64,000 nt of DNA from Candidatus Tumulicola sp. Lineage in GTDB: Bacteria > Vulcanimicrobiota > Vulcanimicrobiia > Vulcanimicrobiales > Vulcanimicrobiaceae. A program made the position numbers and the translations under genes. Position 1 is the stretch's first letter. Every line of letters begins with the position of its first letter. The stretch lies in contig DASXDT010000006.1 in NCBI GenBank assembly GCA_036490475.1, positions 682,001-746,000 of the forward strand, read 5' to 3'. Below, piece after piece: positions 12,918-48,749 of this stretch. Under the pieces are notes generated by a model. It ran no database searches and had not been told where the DNA came from. It saw nothing but the letters and a program-made list of their open reading frames with translations.

Positions 12918-13115
12918 TCACCTCCGAAAACGATTACTTAGTGAGTCTACCGTCAGTAGCATACTGAATTGATGCATGCTACAGCCCCCGGTGCGAGGAA
13001 ACGCCCTATGCTCTTCGAAGATTGAAGCAGCGTTACGGTACTGTCCGCTGTTAAAAGCTTGCCTGAGAGTTTCGTGCCATTGCCGTCTCTTGAGAGAATT
13101 TCGGGAATTACTCAC
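12918..13115 (-). pseudogene. 5' fragment of TPR-LuxR regulator
   Basis: The first 36 codons (GTG start) match the regulator at 34023-32485 with about 30 identities (RQWH..LRQAFNSGQYR.AASIFEEH). The match stops near 13005, where unrelated sequence gives 29 extra residues and a stop. The TPR and HTH domains are absent, so this is a truncated duplicate. Confidence 0.75.
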
Positions 13116-13121
13116 GCCGCA

Positions 13122-13289
13122 TTATACGGGAAGGGGCTTGAGTTGCCCCTTCCCCCTTCCGAGGAGTTGGCCGCCCGGCATCCCTCCCGGGCTTCCGTCG
13201 CCAAGCGGTGCGACCACGGTCACTTCATGAGAACTGATGGAGTGACCGGTTGGAGAAAACAAGAGAAGAAGCGCTAGAAATAGCGCCAT
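13122..13289 (-). CDS. Small hydrophobic-leader Gly-rich peptide, copy 1
   Basis: 55 aa. ATG 13289 follows GGAGG by 8 bases. The leader MALFLALLLLFSPTG is signal-like and is followed by VAPLGDGSPGGMPGG, then a basic tail not present in copy 2. Copy 2 (34196-34074) has the same leader and VAPLGDGSTGGMPGG; many differences between the copies are at third codon positions, which argues for real coding. The stop lies 6 bases before the start of the truncated LuxR frame. It could be a secreted signal peptide precursor, or a leader peptide controlling the regulator. Confidence 0.5.
   Translation of the reverse strand: MALFLALLLLFSPTGHSISSHEVTVVAPLGDGSPGGMPGGQLLGRGKGQLKPLPV
13128..13154. promoter_or_regulatory. 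G-rich hairpin upstream of LuxR start, copy 1
   Basis: GGGAAGGGGC, loop TTGAGTT, GCCCCTTCCC: a perfect 10-bp stem. In this copy it lies inside the 3' end of the peptide gene and ends 13 bases before the LuxR GTG. No T-tract follows, so it is not an ordinary terminator. Confidence 0.6.
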
Positions 13290-13461
13290 TTGTAGTGCCT
13301 CCGCAGTCCATCGACACGAGGTCGAAAGGACTAGCTCAGTAGCTAGCTAAAAGCAGCCACCAGACTACGCTACTACGGAAGCACATCCAAGGCAACAGGG
13401 CGCTTGATTGGAAGCAGCATGCTGTACCAACGACGCTTGCCGGGAAGAATGGAAGAGTATG

Positions 13462-13611
13462 ATGGCCGATTACTACTCGATCAACGAAGGTCTTAAGCCC
13501 GTCAATGAACGGGTGTACCATAACAACGAAAACTGTCGCGCGGGCCGCGACATTCCGAAAAATGAACGAGAGGAAGGCAAAAACGGCTATCGGCTTTGCA
13601 AAGACTGTTAG
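13462..13611 (+). CDS. 49-aa His/Cys small protein, copy 1
   Basis: 49 aa from ATG 13462 (another ATG lies just before it at 13459), preceded by GGAAGAG. Key residues are His20 (VYHNN), Cys25 (NCRAG), and Cys46 and Cys49 (LCKDC), a plausible zinc site. Copy 2 at 34372 matches at 45 of 49 positions. It is divergent from the peptide gene. I recall similar short HNN...GYRxCxxC proteins in soil bacteria but know of no function. Confidence 0.65.
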   Translation: MADYYSINEGLKPVNERVYHNNENCRAGRDIPKNEREEGKNGYRLCKDC

Positions 13612-13619
13612 CCCCTTCG

Positions 13620-14013
13620 TGGGGGCACCGCTCTCGATAGCGCGGTTGAACGCCGTATTGCTTCGACATTCGAGCTCGCGCTTTGTCAGTTTTATGGCGC
13701 GGTTAGCTAACGTGCTTCATGCGTGAACGATTCATCTACACCCTCATGAAGACAAAACAAAGCTTACTGAGCAATCCCTACTGTGGCGGATCAAAAAATC
13801 TGACGAACGCCGCAACTGAAGAATCCCAACAAAAAATCGACTTAAGTGTTTAATTTGCTAGATTAGGCGCTCGAGACTTGCGCAAAATATCGGAAGCCTT
13901 GACTCAAGGAAGCGCCTGAGAGTATTCTTACATCGAGCCAAACCTCTTTAGAGGTCGGGCTGCGAAGCCAACACATTGTGCTGCCTTCAACGCACTTTCG
14001 AAAGGATTCGATT
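13620..14013. other. Intergenic region before lipoprotein gene
   Basis: After the 49-aa gene a small hairpin (GCCCC-TTCGT-GGGGGC, about 13611-13626) may end its transcript. Nothing else coding is seen before the lipoprotein at 14014. Confidence 0.35.
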
Positions 14014-17619: not shown

Positions 17620-17844
17620 TTATTTCTGGCTGTCTTGAAGTGTTTCAGCACGATCTAGCAGTCGTTGCGGCTTAATTTCAAGTGCTCTTCCTATTGCGAA
17701 GAGCGTTTGCAACCGGGGAAACGTCTGGCCCGCCTCACTTTTCTGCAGATGCCGTAGCGAAAGGTTGGCTTCGTATGCCAAATCCTCTTGGGTTCTATGG
17801 GAGGCTCGGCGTCGTTCGGCAATCGCGCGTCCGAGCCCGAGCAT
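17620..17844 (-). CDS. XRE-family HTH protein, copy 1
   Basis: 74 aa. HTH: RRRASHRTQEDLAYEANLSLRHLQKSEAG, split as scaffold helix, TQEDLAYEANL and SLRHLQK. The paralog at 46348 starts seven codons earlier (MVRKSDP); here one base is missing upstream, so that start is out of frame and translation would begin at the internal ATG. This keeps the full HTH. It is divergent from the 153-aa gene at 18414 with about 570 bases between. A probable repressor. Confidence 0.65.
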   Translation of the reverse strand: MLGLGRAIAERRRASHRTQEDLAYEANLSLRHLQKSEAGQTFPRLQTLFAIGRALEIKPQRLLDRAETLQDSQK

Positions 17845-18413
17845 GGATCGCCTTTTCGGACCATCTAATCATTGTTGGGGAAAGCCGCTCAACCAGCAAC
17901 GTCTAGACAGACGCGGCATTAACACGCAGGTTAAATTGCCATCTTTACGTAGTAGGACCTCCAGAATAGTGCGGAGTCGCGGTGGTAGTATTCAGCGAAT
18001 CATCAAGTCCAGGCGCTCGTGGCTTTTTCCGATGTCCAAATAGTGACCGTCGGCCGCTTAGCTTCCTGCGCGGCCCCCAATCCTCGAAGCCTGGGTAGAA
18101 ACGGGGAAGACGCATCCATCCAGACAGCGCACGGAATTGTGTGAAAGTGAGCGAAGGAGACTCCAGTCGTCAGTATTCAGAAACCATCGATTGTGACTTC
18201 GACCGCCGCCGCGGCCGGCATCACTCGACGATCACTAGCGCGGAAGTGCCGGCGAAATGCTTGAGCGAGCGCGGAGTTCGTACGCGCCAGATAACCTCGC
18301 AATAAAACCGTAAAAAGGGCGATACAGATCCAGTTCTCCTATCTGGCGCATACGCGATATTTGAACACCGATGAGTGCGGTATCCGTGCGTCATCGATGA
18401 TCGGTCAACATTC
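17845..18413. other. Divergent intergenic region, duplicated at 46349-46924
   Basis: No gene seen. The region is recognisably related to 46349-46924, so the whole XRE/intergenic/153-aa block was duplicated together. The length suggests promoter elements for both genes; I cannot place boxes with confidence. Confidence 0.4.
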
Positions 18414-18875
18414 ATGAAGCGACGCCGTCGCAAAACTGAAAAGCATGCTCCAAAGAGCGAGTCTGCTCAACGAACGGACATTGGGCCGATATACCGCGTG
18501 ACGCGTGATGCGCGGGCGTTCGCGGCTTTGGCGGGAGATGCACAACATCTCTTCGTCAAAGATATCAATGGCAGCATGCGGTGCGTCACCCACGACAGAC
18601 CAGCACCATCGTGCGTCCCTCCGTCTTCAGATCGTTGCGTGTGGAGTGACACTCTTGACGGTGGCCGTTACACTGTCGCGGTAACTCGCACGGCACCCTA
18701 TAATGCGCTATTGACCGCAGTGCGAGATGGTCGTCTCATTTCTGAACGATGCGTGGGTCTCATGTACAACGCTGAGTTCAGCCCAGATTATGAAGACGTG
18801 CAGTCATGGCAAGCGTTAGGAATGCCCGCGGCTGACGCCGACTATCGACGACGAGGTGAAACCCCGCCGGTCTGA
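18414..18875 (+). CDS. Hypothetical protein, copy 1 of duplicated pair
   Basis: 153 aa from ATG 18414; copy 2 has GTG at the same point, which supports this start over the frame from 18375. The N-terminus is basic (MKRRRRKTEK). The centre has QHLFVKDINGSMRCVTHDR and CVWSDTLDGG, and the C-terminus YNAEFSPDYEDVQSWQALG. Most differences from copy 2 (46925) are conservative, so the protein is under selection. No family recognised; probably controlled by the divergent XRE protein. Confidence 0.6.
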   Translation: MKRRRRKTEKHAPKSESAQRTDIGPIYRVTRDARAFAALAGDAQHLFVKDINGSMRCVTHDRPAPSCVPPSSDRCVWSDTLDGGRYTVAVTRTAPYNALLTAVRDGRLISERCVGLMYNAEFSPDYEDVQSWQALGMPAADADYRRRGETPPV

Positions 18876-30617: not shown

Positions 30618-31874
30618 ATGGATGCATCCGAATTCACGGCCCGTAAGACGGGCGACCTCGTTAAAATCACCGAGGGAGGATGCGCTTTTGTTCCGGACCT
30701 TTTACCGATTTCGGTTGAACTCTCCCATATGGTCAACTTGGAGCTCGAACAAGCTAGCTTGGAACTCGGGCGACTGGACGGACATGGCCAGAACCTTCCC
30801 GATCCGCAGTTGCTTATCGCGCCATTTCTTCGCAAGGAAGCGGTACTGTCGAGCCGGATCGAGGGTACCCAAACAACGTTTTCCGACTTGGTACTGTTCG
30901 AAGCGATGCAAATCCAGGAAGCTGTAAGAAGTCGCGACAATCGCGAAGTCTCGAATTATGTGAATGCTTTGTTGTACGGGTTGCAGCGGTGTAAAGAGTT
31001 ACCGCTTGGCAAGCAACTACTATGTGAAATGCACCATCTACTGCTCAGGGGCATTGAAAAGGACGAGGCGCTGCTCGGATCCTTCCGAACCGCTCAAGTG
31101 CATATCGCTCCCGCAGGTGTGCCAATCCAGTTCGCGAGATTTGTTCCGCCGCCGCCGTATCAGATTCCGGCTCTATTCGATAATTTGCAGAATTATCTCG
31201 CGGCCCCGGACGACTTGCCCCTACTAGTTCGACTCGCGATCGTGCACTATCAGTTCGAGACCATTCACCCCTTCATGGACGGCAACGGTCGTCTCGGTCG
31301 ATTATTAATTGTTTTGATGCTTTGCGCCGCTGGGCGGCTCGCCGCGCCGATGCTTTACCTAAGTGCTTACTTCGAACGCCGGCGCGGACAATATACCGAT
31401 TTGCTGCTTAATGTCAGTAGGGAGGGACGTTGGGAGGAGTGGATTTTGTTCTTCTTGCGCGGCATCGCTACGCAGGCCAGAGATGCAGTCCAACGTGCGC
31501 GCCAGTTGCAAGCATTACGCAAAGATTACAACGAACGCCTCAAGGGAGCTACTGACGCTACGCATCGGCTTGTCGATGAACTTTTCAAGCTGCCAGTAAT
31601 GACGAACAAGATAGCGGAACGTGCGACTGGATTTTCATGGCAGTCTGCGCGCGATACCGTCAAACGGCTGGAAAAAACAAAAATCATCATGCGCGTTAAT
31701 AGCCAGGATAAGGAACACATCTACCTGGCGCCAGAAATTATCGCGATCGTTGATGCGGCGGAAGCCGTCCCTCCAGCGGTCCCAGTTCTAGAATCCTACG
31801 GGCCGCCGCAGCCCTTTGAGATCACACAAGACAGTTCCGAGGTTCACGTCATCGAGGCTGGTCGCTCAGCTTAA
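30618..31874 (+). CDS. Fic-domain protein (probable AMP-transferase)
   Basis: 418 aa. The Fic active site is HPFMDGNGRLGRLL with His217. An N-terminal inhibitory helix carries SSRIEGT (Ser78, Glu82-Gly83), which places it in the class II self-inhibited group where the Glu blocks ATP. A C-terminal winged-HTH-like region (MTNKIAERATGFSWQSARDT) follows, as in many standalone Fic proteins. It modifies target proteins with AMP or another nucleotide. No partner antitoxin is adjacent, consistent with intramolecular inhibition. Confidence 0.9.
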   Translation: MDASEFTARKTGDLVKITEGGCAFVPDLLPISVELSHMVNLELEQASLELGRLDGHGQNLPDPQLLIAPFLRKEAVLSSRIEGTQTTFSDLVLFEAMQIQEAVRSRDNREVSNYVNALLYGLQRCKELPLGKQLLCEMHHLLLRGIEKDEALLGSFRTAQVHIAPAGVPIQFARFVPPPPYQIPALFDNLQNYLAAPDDLPLLVRLAIVHYQFETIHPFMDGNGRLGRLLIVLMLCAAGRLAAPMLYLSAYFERRRGQYTDLLLNVSREGRWEEWILFFLRGIATQARDAVQRARQLQALRKDYNERLKGATDATHRLVDELFKLPVMTNKIAERATGFSWQSARDTVKRLEKTKIIMRVNSQDKEHIYLAPEIIAIVDAAEAVPPAVPVLESYGPPQPFEITQDSSEVHVIEAGRSA

Positions 31875-32484: not shown

Positions 32485-34023
32485 TCACCGCATCGTCGGG
32501 GCCATACCTCGACGAACGGCTTCAACCAGAAGCGATTGGCGCGTCTTAACCCCAAAGGCTTTGAATATCTGCTTGATGTGATTGCTAATCGTGAACTCGC
32601 TTCGACTTAAGGTGTGGGCAATCTCCGCAGTGGACTTGCCTTCGCAAAGCTCTTCAAAGACGCGCTGCTGCATCGGAGGCAGAAGCGTTTCAGCCGGGCC
32701 TGACACTTTTTGGTATTCTCGCCAGAGCCAGCTCTCGCGGTAATGCAGCAGACGCTCACGGATGGACGGAAGGAGCGCCCGATTCCGCGTGATCGCAAAC
32801 TCGTCGAGAAGACAGCGCGCGGCACGTGCGTCGAAGCCGAAGCGCTCAAAAACAGTTCGTGCGGCACGCAGTTCGGTGAGCGCACGCTTTCGGTTGCCGA
32901 GCGCGAGCTCGACACTTCCGGCTGCGTACTGCGCATAAGCTGAGCGACGAGCGTCGTGACGATTATACAGAGGCGAACGCAGTTCTCCAAGCTCGCGGTA
33001 ACGTGCTAGGTACATAGCCGACCTTCCTGAGTCGATCTTGCCGAATAGTTCGGCCAATTGCAAGAGACCGATTCGTTCTTCGCCGAGCGTAGAGTGCCAA
33101 TCTACGGTGTCGGCGAGTGCTTCGGCCTCGTCCAGCTCCACGCGTGACCAGCAATGTTCGTCAAAGCATCCGGCCAAATAGGCGCGGTCGCAAGCGGCGA
33201 CCACCTTCCAAGCAATGGTGTCGCTCGTAGACGTCGCTTTCTTGAGATTTCGAAAAGCATTGAAATAATCACCCTGCAAGGCCTTCGCCCAAGCCAGCGC
33301 TCTGTACGCCTGAAAAACGTTGTGAGCAAAATCTTCCGGCAGCGGGACCCCGTCGAGTTGGCGTTCGACCTCCGGTATGGCGGCAGGTAAGTACAACTCT
33401 CGGGCGAGAGCCGCAAGCGTATGCGTTCCCCACACACGAATCTCCGTAAAATCTGTGCCCGCAGGATCAATCGATCGCAAAACTTCGATCAGTTTGTTTG
33501 CCTGCTCGAAGACGCGTTCTTCGTAAGGCAAAATGAGCGTTTCGCAGTACGCGGCATAGATAGCCGCTCGGCGAGATACTCCGCGCTGCGCTAGCTCTAA
33601 GCTTGCGCGAGCATTAGCCGGACGCTCTTCCAGAAGATAACGTCGCACGGCTCGATATCCTAGAGCCGCGATGACCTCCGGGTCGCCGAGCTGAAGCGCC
33701 GCGTGGACTGCCCTCTGGAGATTTTCGTCGGCCGCATCAAACGCTCCAGTGCGAGCATGTGCTTCCGCTAGAAGGCTCTCCCTTTCGATCGACAGGCGAA
33801 TGTTTGAAGTGGGCACTTTCAAACCAACGAGGCGGCGAAGCACTTCCGCAGGATCAGTCCGCATACGAGAAGACGCTGCTACCAGGACGATATCAATCGG
33901 TTCGCTTCCACCCTCATGCTCTTCGAAGATTGAAGCAGCCTTGCGATACTGTCCGCTATTAAAAGCTTGCCTGAGAGCGTCGTGCCATTGCCGTGTCTTG
34001 AGAGCGTTTCGAGAAGTACTCAC
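32485..34023 (-). CDS. TPR-like LuxR-family transcriptional regulator
   Basis: 512 aa from GTG 34023. A long helical-repeat region (TPR/MalT-like, about residues 15-430, with repeats such as FDAADENLQRAVHAALQLGD and GNRKRALTELRAARTVFERF) leads to a C-terminal LuxR HTH (QQRVFEELCEGKSTAEIAHT, then SRSEFTISNHIKQIFKAFGV). There is no AAA+ domain, so it is not a full MalT/LAL regulator; the solenoid probably binds a small molecule or peptide. No clear ribosome site precedes the GTG, and a strong hairpin lies just upstream, so translation may be controlled. The peptide gene 34196-34074 is directly upstream. Confidence 0.85.
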   Translation of the reverse strand: MSTSRNALKTRQWHDALRQAFNSGQYRKAASIFEEHEGGSEPIDIVLVAASSRMRTDPAEVLRRLVGLKVPTSNIRLSIERESLLAEAHARTGAFDAADENLQRAVHAALQLGDPEVIAALGYRAVRRYLLEERPANARASLELAQRGVSRRAAIYAAYCETLILPYEERVFEQANKLIEVLRSIDPAGTDFTEIRVWGTHTLAALARELYLPAAIPEVERQLDGVPLPEDFAHNVFQAYRALAWAKALQGDYFNAFRNLKKATSTSDTIAWKVVAACDRAYLAGCFDEHCWSRVELDEAEALADTVDWHSTLGEERIGLLQLAELFGKIDSGRSAMYLARYRELGELRSPLYNRHDARRSAYAQYAAGSVELALGNRKRALTELRAARTVFERFGFDARAARCLLDEFAITRNRALLPSIRERLLHYRESWLWREYQKVSGPAETLLPPMQQRVFEELCEGKSTAEIAHTLSRSEFTISNHIKQIFKAFGVKTRQSLLVEAVRRGMAPTMR

Positions 34024-34035
34024 GCCGCGTTATAC

Positions 34036-34064
34036 GGGGAAGGGGTTTGAGTTGCCCCTTCCCC
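34036..34064. promoter_or_regulatory. Perfect G-rich hairpin between peptide gene and LuxR
   Basis: GGGGAAGGGG, loop TTTGAGTTG, CCCCTTCCCC: a perfect 10-bp stem ending 13 bases before the LuxR GTG and 10 bases after the peptide stop. It is conserved in copy 1 (13128-13154). With no T-tract it is more likely an attenuator, a processing site or a translational control element than a plain terminator. Confidence 0.65.
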
Positions 34065-34073
34065 CTCTAGGGG

Positions 34074-34196
34074 TTAGCCGCCCGGCATGCCGCCCGTGCT
34101 TCCGTCGCCAAGCGGCGCGACCACAGGCCCTCCATGAGAACTGATGGGGTGACCGGTCGGAGAAAACAGGAGAAGAAACGCTAGAAATAGCGCCAT
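34074..34196 (-). CDS. Small hydrophobic-leader Gly-rich peptide, copy 2
   Basis: 40 aa, too short for ordinary gene finding. ATG 34196 is ten bases after GGAGG. MALFLAFLLLFSPTG is a signal-like hydrophobic leader, and the tail is VVAPLGDGSTGGMPGG. Copy 1 (13289-13122) preserves leader and tail with several synonymous changes. It lies upstream of the TPR-LuxR gene on the same strand. By analogy with other regulator/peptide pairs it may encode a secreted signal sensed by the TPR domain, but a cis-acting leader is equally possible. Confidence 0.55.
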   Translation of the reverse strand: MALFLAFLLLFSPTGHPISSHGGPVVAPLGDGSTGGMPGG

Positions 34197-34371
34197 TTTT
34201 GTTGTGCCTCCGCAGCCCACCCGACGCAACGTCGAGAGGACTAGCTTGGTAGCTAGCTAAAATCAGCCAGCAAACTTAAGCTACTACGGAAAGCGCTTCT
34301 AAGGCAACAGGGCGTCCGTTGGCGCAGCCTCTGCTGCTCCAACAAACCCTTGCCGGAAGACTGGGGATATC

Positions 34372-34521
34372 ATGGCCGACTACTACTCGATCAACGAAGG
34401 TCTCAAGCCCGTTAATGAACGTGTGTATCACAACAATACGAACTGTCGCGCGGGCCGCGACATTCCAAAAAATGAACGGAAAGAAGGCACAAATGGCTAT
34501 CCGCTTTGCAAAGACTGTTGA
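34372..34521 (+). CDS. 49-aa His/Cys small protein, copy 2
   Basis: 49 aa. Same protein as at 13462, differing at four positions (residues 23, 37, 40, 44). His20, Cys25, Cys46 and Cys49 are kept. It is divergent from the peptide/LuxR pair across 175 bases that include the conserved GTAGCTAGCTAAAA element, so the two transcripts may share control. Function unknown. Confidence 0.65.
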   Translation: MADYYSINEGLKPVNERVYHNNTNCRAGRDIPKNERKEGTNGYPLCKDC

Positions 34522-46105: not shown

Positions 46106-46348
46106 CCCTTTGCTGTCTTGGAGTGTTTCGGCGCGATCGAGCAGACGTTGCGGCTTAATTTCAAGTGCTCTTCCTATTGCGAAGAGTGTTTGCAACCGAG
46201 GAAACGTCTGACCGGCCTCAATTTTCTGTAGATGCCGTAGCGAAAGGTTGGCTTCATATGCCAAATCCTCTTGGGTTCTATGGGATGCTCGGCGTCGTTC
46301 GGCAATCGCGCGACCGAGCCCGAGCATGGGATCGCTTTTTCGGACCAT
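46103..46348 (-). CDS. XRE-family HTH protein, copy 2
   Basis: 81 aa from MVRKSDP. Nearly identical to copy 1 at 17844-17620 through RAETLQDS; the final residues differ (KG instead of QK) because the IS right end begins there and provides the TGA. The HTH is intact. It is divergent from the 153-aa gene at 46925. Confidence 0.7.
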   Translation of the reverse strand: MVRKSDPMLGLGRAIAERRRASHRTQEDLAYEANLSLRHLQKIEAGQTFPRLQTLFAIGRALEIKPQRLLDRAETLQDSKG

Positions 46349-46924
46349 CTAATCATTGTTGGGGAAAGCCGCTCAACCGGCCACGTCTGGCTGAACGCGG
46401 CATTAAAATGCAGGTTTAAGAGATATCTCCCACGTACTGAGGCCCAGAGCAGCATGGAGGTCGCGGATGCCAGTATTCATCGATTCGTCAAAGGGTGCGA
46501 GCGGTCGCGGTCAGAGCCCGAGTGGCGACCTCGGCTGTCCTGGCTTCTTCCTCCGCCCCAATCCTTGCAGCGTGGGGCTTTGAACGGGGACTCCAGACCC
46601 GGGACGCTTCCCGTCCGACAGCACGCAATTATCGCATCTAGTGCAAGTCAGCGACAAGAGACTTCGGGTCGTCGGCAGTTTCGAAACCGCCGCATATGAC
46701 TTCGACCGACACAGCGGCTGGCGTTGTTTTCCGATCGCTATTGCGGAAGCTGTCGGGGCATGCTCTTGAGTCTGACGACCGCGGTGTTCGTACGCACCAG
46801 ATAAGCTCGCAACAAAAAACGAGAAAAGGCGGCGCAGTTCCTGGTGATCTAAATAGCGGGTCCGCGATATTCGGTGCACTACTAAGTGTGGTATTCGTGC
46901 CTCACCGATGACGGGTCAACATTC
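46349..46924. other. Divergent intergenic region, copy 2
   Basis: Diverged copy of 17845-18413. No gene seen. Confidence 0.4.
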
Positions 46925-47386
46925 GTGAAGCGACGCCATCGCAAAACCGAAAATCACGGTCCGACGAGCGAGTCTGCGCAACGCACGGACACCGGGCCGA
47001 TATACCGCGTAACGCGCGATCCGCAGGCGTTTGCAGCTTGGTTGGGAGATGCCCAACATCTCTTCGTCAAAAACATCGATGGTAGCATGCGGTGCGTCAT
47101 CCACGATCGATCGGCAGCATCGTGCGTCCCTCCGACCTCAGATTATTGCGTGTGGCGGGACACTCTTGACGGTGGTGGTTATATCGTCACGGTAACTCGC
47201 ACGGCGCCCTATAAAGGCCTATTGACCGTAGTACGGGATAATCGCATCATCTCCGAACGGCGCGTCGGTCTCATGTACAACGCTGATTTCGGACCAGATT
47301 ATGAAGATGTGCAGTCATGGCAAGCGTTAGGAGTGGCGGCAGCTGACGCTGACTACCGACGGCGAGGTGAAACGCCGCCAGCTTAA
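46925..47386 (+). CDS. Hypothetical protein, copy 2 of duplicated pair
   Basis: 153 aa from GTG 46925. Same protein as at 18414 with shared blocks QHLFVKNIDGSMRCVIHDR, CVWRDTLDGG and YNADFGPDYEDVQSWQALG. Changes are mostly conservative. It could be a regulated effector of the XRE protein, but no domain is recognised. Confidence 0.6.
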   Translation: MKRRHRKTENHGPTSESAQRTDTGPIYRVTRDPQAFAAWLGDAQHLFVKNIDGSMRCVIHDRSAASCVPPTSDYCVWRDTLDGGGYIVTVTRTAPYKGLLTVVRDNRIISERRVGLMYNADFGPDYEDVQSWQALGVAAADADYRRRGETPPA

Positions 47387-47484: not shown

Positions 47485-48255
47485 CTACTTCGCATCATCA
47501 TCCGGCGCCTGAGGGGGCTTAAAGCCTTTAGCGTACCGTCGCGATGCACGGTCGACACGCGCGAGCCATCTGCGATTCTCGCTTGCGACAAGTTCACTAA
47601 TCAGTTTGATGTCGTTATCGGCCACATCAATCTCTAAGTGATCGTTTAGGAGCGTCTCAAGCGCCTGCCTAGCTTCGAGTGAAGGATTGACCTGATGCTC
47701 GAGGTGCCTGAGGGCCATAGCGGAACGACCAATATCGCCTTCTATGAACTCCCAGCTCAGCACGTCGTCTTCTTCGATGGGGTCGAGGTGGTCGGGAAAG
47801 TATAGCGCTGGAATATCCAGAGACGAGTTTTCAATAATACGAGCGCAACGCGAACGTAGATCTAGGTACAGGGCTTCGGCGTTGACGTTAACCGCGATAT
47901 ACGGTCCGCCGTACACTGCCCAAAAGAGTGTCGAAATGCGATCGTAAAATGCGCGAAGCATTACTATGTCGAAAGACTTTTGCAGACTTACCATGTGTAG
48001 TTCGTCAGCTATTTCTTCAGGCGAAAGCGCCTCTGCGACATAATATCCATCCCGATCCGTCGCGGCCACGAGTTCGCGAGCGTTTCGCCTCAGAGCATCT
48101 CCTAGCTTTGTTGTCACGCTGACACTTGCGGCAAGCGCTCCATTTTCAATACGTGAAATGCGAGGTTGACCAAGACCCGTCTTACGAGCCAGTTCTGCTT
48201 GTGAGATTCTTTGCTCGAGCCGGACAGCGGCCACGCGTTTACCAAAAGCTTCCAT
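47485..48255 (-). CDS. XRE-family regulator with C-terminal helical domain
   Basis: 256 aa from ATG 48255, preceded by TTGGAGGATGAA. HTH: RLEQRISQAELARKTGLGQP then RISRIENGAL (about residues 13-45). The C-terminal 200 residues are acidic and helical with no recognised domain (DHLDPIEEDDVLSWEFIEGD). The longer frame to 48723 is GC-rich non-coding-like sequence. Probably a transcriptional regulator. Confidence 0.75.
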   Translation of the reverse strand: MEAFGKRVAAVRLEQRISQAELARKTGLGQPRISRIENGALAASVSVTTKLGDALRRNARELVAATDRDGYYVAEALSPEEIADELHMVSLQKSFDIVMLRAFYDRISTLFWAVYGGPYIAVNVNAEALYLDLRSRCARIIENSSLDIPALYFPDHLDPIEEDDVLSWEFIEGDIGRSAMALRHLEHQVNPSLEARQALETLLNDHLEIDVADNDIKLISELVASENRRWLARVDRASRRYAKGFKPPQAPDDDAK

Positions 48256-48749
48256 TTCATCCTCCAAGCCAACCTTACCGCGCCGACAGCACGCATAGCA
48301 AGATGCATAGAACATGCATAAGAACGCGCACTCTAAATTCGGAAGCATCGGCTTAGCTGATTGCCGGCCAACTCTCCAAAAAGAGAGGCGAGATGCGGCG
48401 ACGAGACCCATGCCGGTCGACGGCCAGCCATCATCGGGAAGGCACTCAGCCGCGGCGAGCCGCGCTCGATCGACGTGTAGTATACCGGACGATCGATCTC
48501 GGCGCGCGTTGCCTTGGCCCAGCAGGCTTGAGCCTCTGCTCGACGGCGAGCGAGCCTCACGTCTTTGCCGTCGCATCGCCGTTTTTGTGTGGGCGGTGAA
48601 GATGAGAAAACGACGGCGCGGGCATTGGGGCGTGGCTCCTGCGCCGCGACGACAAGCCGATCTACATCGAGCAGCATCTGGTCCGCGGAGCGGGCTCAAC
48701 AAACATGGGCTCGCGTTGCTCAATTTGCACAGGTTGATGCTTCAAAAGC
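48256..48749. other. Intergenic, no gene seen
   Basis: Long open frames on both strands here arise from a GC-rich stretch and lack ribosome sites. Confidence 0.35.

Follow-up and report, generated by a model that had tools for sequence, protein, structure and literature searches.

Our analysis of a 64,000-nucleotide stretch of a Candidatus Tumulicola sp. genome (contig DASXDT010000006.1, positions 682,001 to 746,000; hereafter the window) suggests that a 40-aa peptide and the TPR-LuxR regulator encoded downstream of it quite probably form a signalling pair, one that, by analogy, would work like the RRNPP systems while being built from different parts. The sequence-only reading of this locus had proposed a three-part cassette made of the regulator, the peptide, and a divergent 49-aa His/Cys protein; the peptide and the regulator do recur together, whereas the 49-aa protein falls away as a member. 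The coordinates (Table 1) confirm that the 40-aa frame has its own GGAGG site and ends 50 bases before the regulator start on the same strand, and a GGAGG site likewise precedes the peptide frames of the related loci L079, L113, L041, and L011. The relatives of the window peptide include MALFFAFLVALSSGGFFHAAQGAGIVQPLDSTGGMDGD (L079) and MAIFFALLVSLMSGGLSGPVPAAAIVAPMDSVGGMSGG (L113). A promoter scan gave no sigma-70-like site near the pair, and an Rfam scan of the window gave no matches. A gene for a Fic/DOC-family protein with a Fic_N domain (window 30618-31874) converges on the regulator gene.

Table 1. Features of the peptide-regulator locus, its second copy, and the lipoprotein partners (window positions, unless a locus is named)
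Feature	Position	Strand	Description
TPR-LuxR regulator, 512 aa	32485..34023	-	GTG start; TPR solenoid at about residues 1-440, GerE/LuxR HTH at 452-500
Stem-loop, 10-bp, GGGGAAGGGG/CCCCTTCCCC	34036..34064	-	in the gap from peptide stop to regulator start; no U tract
40-aa candidate propeptide MALFLAFLLLFSPTGHPISSHGGPVVAPLGDGSTGGMPGG	34074..34196	-	hydrophobic leader, C-terminal core GDGSTGGMPGG
Candidate core peptide PLGDGSTGGMPGG			window locus
GGAGG ribosome-binding site of 40-aa frame	34207..34211	-	10 nt before ATG
Divergent 49-aa His/Cys protein	34372..34521	+	H-x4-C ... C-x2-C
Copy 2, regulator N-terminus remnant	13002..13112	-	residues 2-38 (37 codons), 78% identical
Copy 2, peptide frame	13122..13289	-	extended by 15 aa after loss of the original stop; core GDGSPGGMPGG kept
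Copy 2, 49-aa protein	13462..13611	+	92% identical
Lipoprotein partners	L025:433-1449, L156:472-1452, L063:4568-5548, and 14 other loci		

The regulator matches GerE (PF00196) over residues 452-500 (Pfam, E 5e-8), with TPR matches below threshold only, and no ATPase domain (AAA/NB-ARC) was found in its 512 residues with Pfam. The autoinducer-binding domain of LuxR acyl-homoserine-lactone receptors is absent among its Pfam hits up to E 10, and no RRNPP-family model appears among its Pfam or NCBIfam hits up to the same value. The AlphaFold2 model, computed from an alignment of 33 relatives (pLDDT 94), is an all-helical TPR-type solenoid of helical pairs with the HTH at the C terminus, bearing out the earlier description of a TPR-LuxR protein devoid of an ATPase. 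The profile matches the consensus TPR, and the fold matches of the model in the PDB are TPR superhelices in general; one of them, at rank 39 (TM 0.31-0.42), is the Rap phi105 receptor, whose structure was solved together with its peptide. About 124 distinct relatives were collected, the closest full-length match being 61% identical (PMTY01000033.1), and the named ones belong to Candidatus Eremiobacterota. Full-length members are common and multiplied in genomes of the window's own family; outside it, one more family of the order and one more of the class have single full-length regulators, L032 comes from an additional genome belonging to the sister family, and the rest of the phylum shows HTH-level matches only, as does G009, a single contig of 3.5 Mb. 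No relatives were found on viral contigs. In the window's genome, GerE has 23 matches in total, and five regulators belong to the family. A second TPR-LuxR regulator, L039 (G000:C6:747731-749251), lies 1.7 kb past the window end, and its lipobox peptide holds two DSGGAMTGD repeats.

The sequence-only reading had proposed looking for short upstream frames beside related regulators, and these were found. At 66 of the 119 regulators with at least 450 bases upstream, the same strand carries, directly upstream, a short frame that encodes a hydrophobic leader together with D-x(1-3)-GG or a tandem repeat; such a frame precedes 4 of 126 other genes of these loci and appears in 3 of 119 antisense controls. 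The corresponding Fisher values (p ~1e-21) overstate the evidence because related loci are not independent, and the spread of partners over the deep clades is the better argument: every deep clade of the tree, built from 121 regulators, includes members with the peptide partner, so the association looks ancestral. This rule was first noticed on the first 40 loci and holds in 43 of the 73 collected afterward. In the reverse direction, scanning a regulator-free 400 kb of the same 3.3 Mb genome gave 32 frames, none of them family-like, and in the window the rule finds only the two peptide copies. Among 118 classified regulators, 71 have a short-peptide partner (a count that includes a few by-eye additions), 17 have a lipoprotein partner, and 30 have no recognisable partner. 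Two partnerless family regulators lie head to tail at one locus (L161 and L167, G090:C80) and may be receptors that lack their own peptide.

The peptides share a core with the approximate consensus P-x-D-[ST]-x-G-G-[GIP]-P, whose end lies, at the median, 5 aa before the C terminus. A repeated stretch of at least 5 residues, mostly the core itself, occurs in 26 of the 71 peptides, for example as DSVGGGPP seven times (L021), STHGGAVD eight times (L057), TPGGPIP units three times (L042), and ADSIGGPL repeats (L184 and L185); several pheromone copies in tandem are established for Rap propeptides (PMC11343458). The sister-family loci L029 and L032 have the same architecture with another core (ADGTLPPY and AEGSHPPY). 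All peptides carry hydrophobic leaders, many of which, including that of the window, lack basic residues such as a typical Sec signal has, and 26 of 71 have a lipobox-like sequence. The second check proposed at the outset, for purifying selection on the short frame, showed that silent changes exceed amino-acid changes, with pN/pS between 0.11 and 0.64 over the compared pairs and significance in all tested pairs except window/copy 2. The values include 0.11 for L129/L133 (Fisher p 2e-13), 0.18 for L018/L135 (p 9e-8), 0.31 for L011/L044 (p 0.005), 0.56 for the window peptide and its closest relative L079 (p 0.008), and 0.38 for the window peptide and copy 2 (p 0.07). By the values for these last two pairs, the window's own peptide is less strongly supported by selection than the family as a whole. 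Together, the controls, the reverse scan, and selection rule out a chance frame.

The anatomy, conservation, and linkage of the pair can be read from the genomes, and from these we infer the steps of a signalling path by analogy with RRNPP. Export of the peptide would be directed by its leader and use Sec, some members leaving as lipoproteins; proteases would then release short core peptides, which an oligopeptide permease would re-import; the core peptide would bind the TPR solenoid and thereby turn the LuxR domain on or off at target promoters, probably including the regulator's own. Binding of the peptide to the regulator is part of the analogy. Similarity among the peptides and similarity among the regulators are weakly correlated (Mantel rho 0.16), which is expected from linkage and is not evidence of binding. 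Regulators with odd cores (L029, L032, L170, and L172) differ at positions 245, 279, and 317 among others, many partnerless regulators keep the residues at these positions, and none of the solenoid columns listed tracked core type significantly over independent pairs in the tree; we therefore claim no binding site. Likewise, conserved solenoid residues do not track partner type once relatedness is allowed for.

A variant of the pair bears on what the peptide is for. In one regulator clade, the upstream gene encodes a lipoprotein of 300-360 aa that ends 10-37 bases before the regulator and carries CarboxypepD_reg, with DUF4382 in one of the two members scanned. D-x-x-GG follows soon after the leader or lipobox in 15 of the 17 lipoprotein partners under a strict definition (e.g. 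FDTHGGIAT, KDTLGGIPT, and LDVLGGAPS) and in 17 of 17 under a relaxed one that admits ETIGG and NSVGG, as compared with none of 26 other lipoprotein-like frames of at least 150 aa in the window and the 400 kb. The motif is therefore the shared element, and a short motif behind a predicted export leader is common to the great majority of partners. In the L112 and L156 lipoproteins, D-x-x-GG is found again between the domains. The larger lipoprotein at the same place, together with the lipobox-like sequences among the short peptides, would also suit a small surface peptide or lipoprotein that is secreted and co-transcribed with the regulator, or is a target made under its control, while the regulator senses something else. 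We consider this unlikely, as only the short D-x-x-GG core is shared and no fold, tandem cores and their C-terminal placement suit pheromone precursors better, and the linkage to one regulator family has been kept over very deep divergence.

The envelope of the host raises a difficulty for the signalling reading, because the peptide must cross an outer membrane. The phylum's cultivated member is a Gram-negative diderm whose outer membrane is covered with lipopolysaccharide (PMC9758169), and genes for BamA and lipopolysaccharide are present in WPS-2 genomes (PMC6664022). No need for two such crossings arises if the precursor is sensed by the regulator before export, within the cell, and the pair monitors the export flux of that cell without cell-cell communication, and the lipoprotein-embedded motif would fit this as well. 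Such an export monitor is nevertheless improbable, since it leaves the tandem multiplication of the core unexplained and since the ten oligopeptide-binding proteins of the window's genome could provide a route for peptide uptake.

Among the 105 neighbour proteins surveyed, the pair has no recurring exporter, protease, or permease. Nor do target genes, modification enzymes, or peptidase exporters recur there, and no Pfam family is found in more than 3 of the 105. A RiPP or bacteriocin precursor whose pathway the TPR-LuxR protein regulates is therefore a very improbable reading of the peptide; a leader followed by a Gly-rich, sometimes repeated core would agree with such a precursor, but the GG is placed within the C-terminal core rather than at a leader cleavage site.

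Strong folds (z below -2) lie in the 75 bases before the regulator at 46% of peptide-bearing loci, as compared with 7% before partnerless regulators and 8% before control genes. Despite this hairpin, a reading of the short frame as a cis-acting leader or attenuator before the regulator gene, with a functionless product, is scarcely credible, given selection on the amino-acid sequence, the repeated cores, and the motif inside the larger lipoprotein, which rule out attenuation as the main function. As part of a signalling pair, the hairpin probably makes expression uneven, letting the peptide be made in excess of its receptor.

The divergent 49-aa frame of the sequence-only reading is a genuine gene, with dN/dS ~0.08 between the window copies (Fisher p 2e-6) and strong purifying selection across a family with the pattern YHNNxNCxAGRDIPxNER...YxLCKDC. 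Homologues occur in 13 of 148 genomes, with up to five copies in one of them (G066), and mostly away from regulators of this TPR-LuxR family; the protein is therefore outside the recurring cassette. It is carried along in a duplicated segment: a partly decayed second copy of about 700 bp (13004-13707, 84% identical) comprises the regulator N terminus, the peptide, and the 49-aa gene and keeps the inter-gene stem-loop. A further 1.27-kb repeat of 79% identity joins window positions 46112-47379 and 17629-18868, and one of its copies ends beside an XRE-type HTH protein (47488-48576). With this repeat and several shorter repeat pairs, the window bears the marks of repeated segmental duplication.

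In RRNPP(A) systems, the propeptide gene adjoins that of a TPR-type receptor, and some propeptides contain several pheromone copies (PMC10075063, PMC9765709, PMC11343458). Compared with Rap-Phr, NprR-NprX, PlcR-PapR, Rgg-SHP, ComR-XIP, PrgX, and AimR-arbitrium, the pair described here shares the adjacent small propeptide gene with a hydrophobic leader and the TPR-type intracellular receptor. On the other hand, its HTH is of the LuxR/GerE type and C-terminal, whereas RRNPP(A) transcription factors have an N-terminal HTH; no RRNPP model matches the regulator; the core is D-x-x-GG; the host belongs to a diderm phylum and not to Bacillota; and one clade has the core inside a lipoprotein. With HTH type, HTH position, and sequence homology all differing, the pair lies outside the RRNPP family proper and, judged by sequence, is not homologous to it. 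MalT/LAL-type LuxR regulators, proteins of ~900 aa, have an ATPase domain and a C-terminal LuxR HTH behind a TPR superhelix; the regulator shares the latter arrangement but is without the ATPase, measures ~510 aa, and has a peptide gene as its partner. Enterococcal sex pheromones are peptide signals cut from lipoprotein precursors, with the pheromone within the signal peptide; by analogy, the candidate signal of one clade would lie within a lipoprotein precursor, although here the motif comes after the leader. Double-glycine peptides of the ComC/bacteriocin type are also short precursors with Gly-Gly, but there the exporter cuts at the leader GG and a two-component system senses the peptide (PMC10617681), whereas in the present peptides the GG belongs to the C-terminal core, with no such exporter recurring.

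Genetically encoded peptides that act on cytoplasmic TPR receptors have been described for Bacillota and their phages, and the large RRNPP surveys covered Bacillota and viruses only (PMC10075063, PMC9765709). A description of such a system in Eremiobacterota was not found in the literature covered, most subscription papers and bioRxiv being outside its scope. On balance, we favour the view that these genes represent an undescribed, multiplied pheromone family of a diderm phylum, in which TPR-LuxR receptors would have been assembled independently of RRNPP and would respond to their own D-x-x-GG signals carried in single or tandem propeptides or in lipoproteins. The core sequences are open to direct synthesis and testing. 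If this view is true, RRNPP-like signalling logic would have arisen more than once and would work in double-membraned cells, and the cores would be candidate cell-cell signals for the largely uncultivated, widespread phylum Eremiobacterota.
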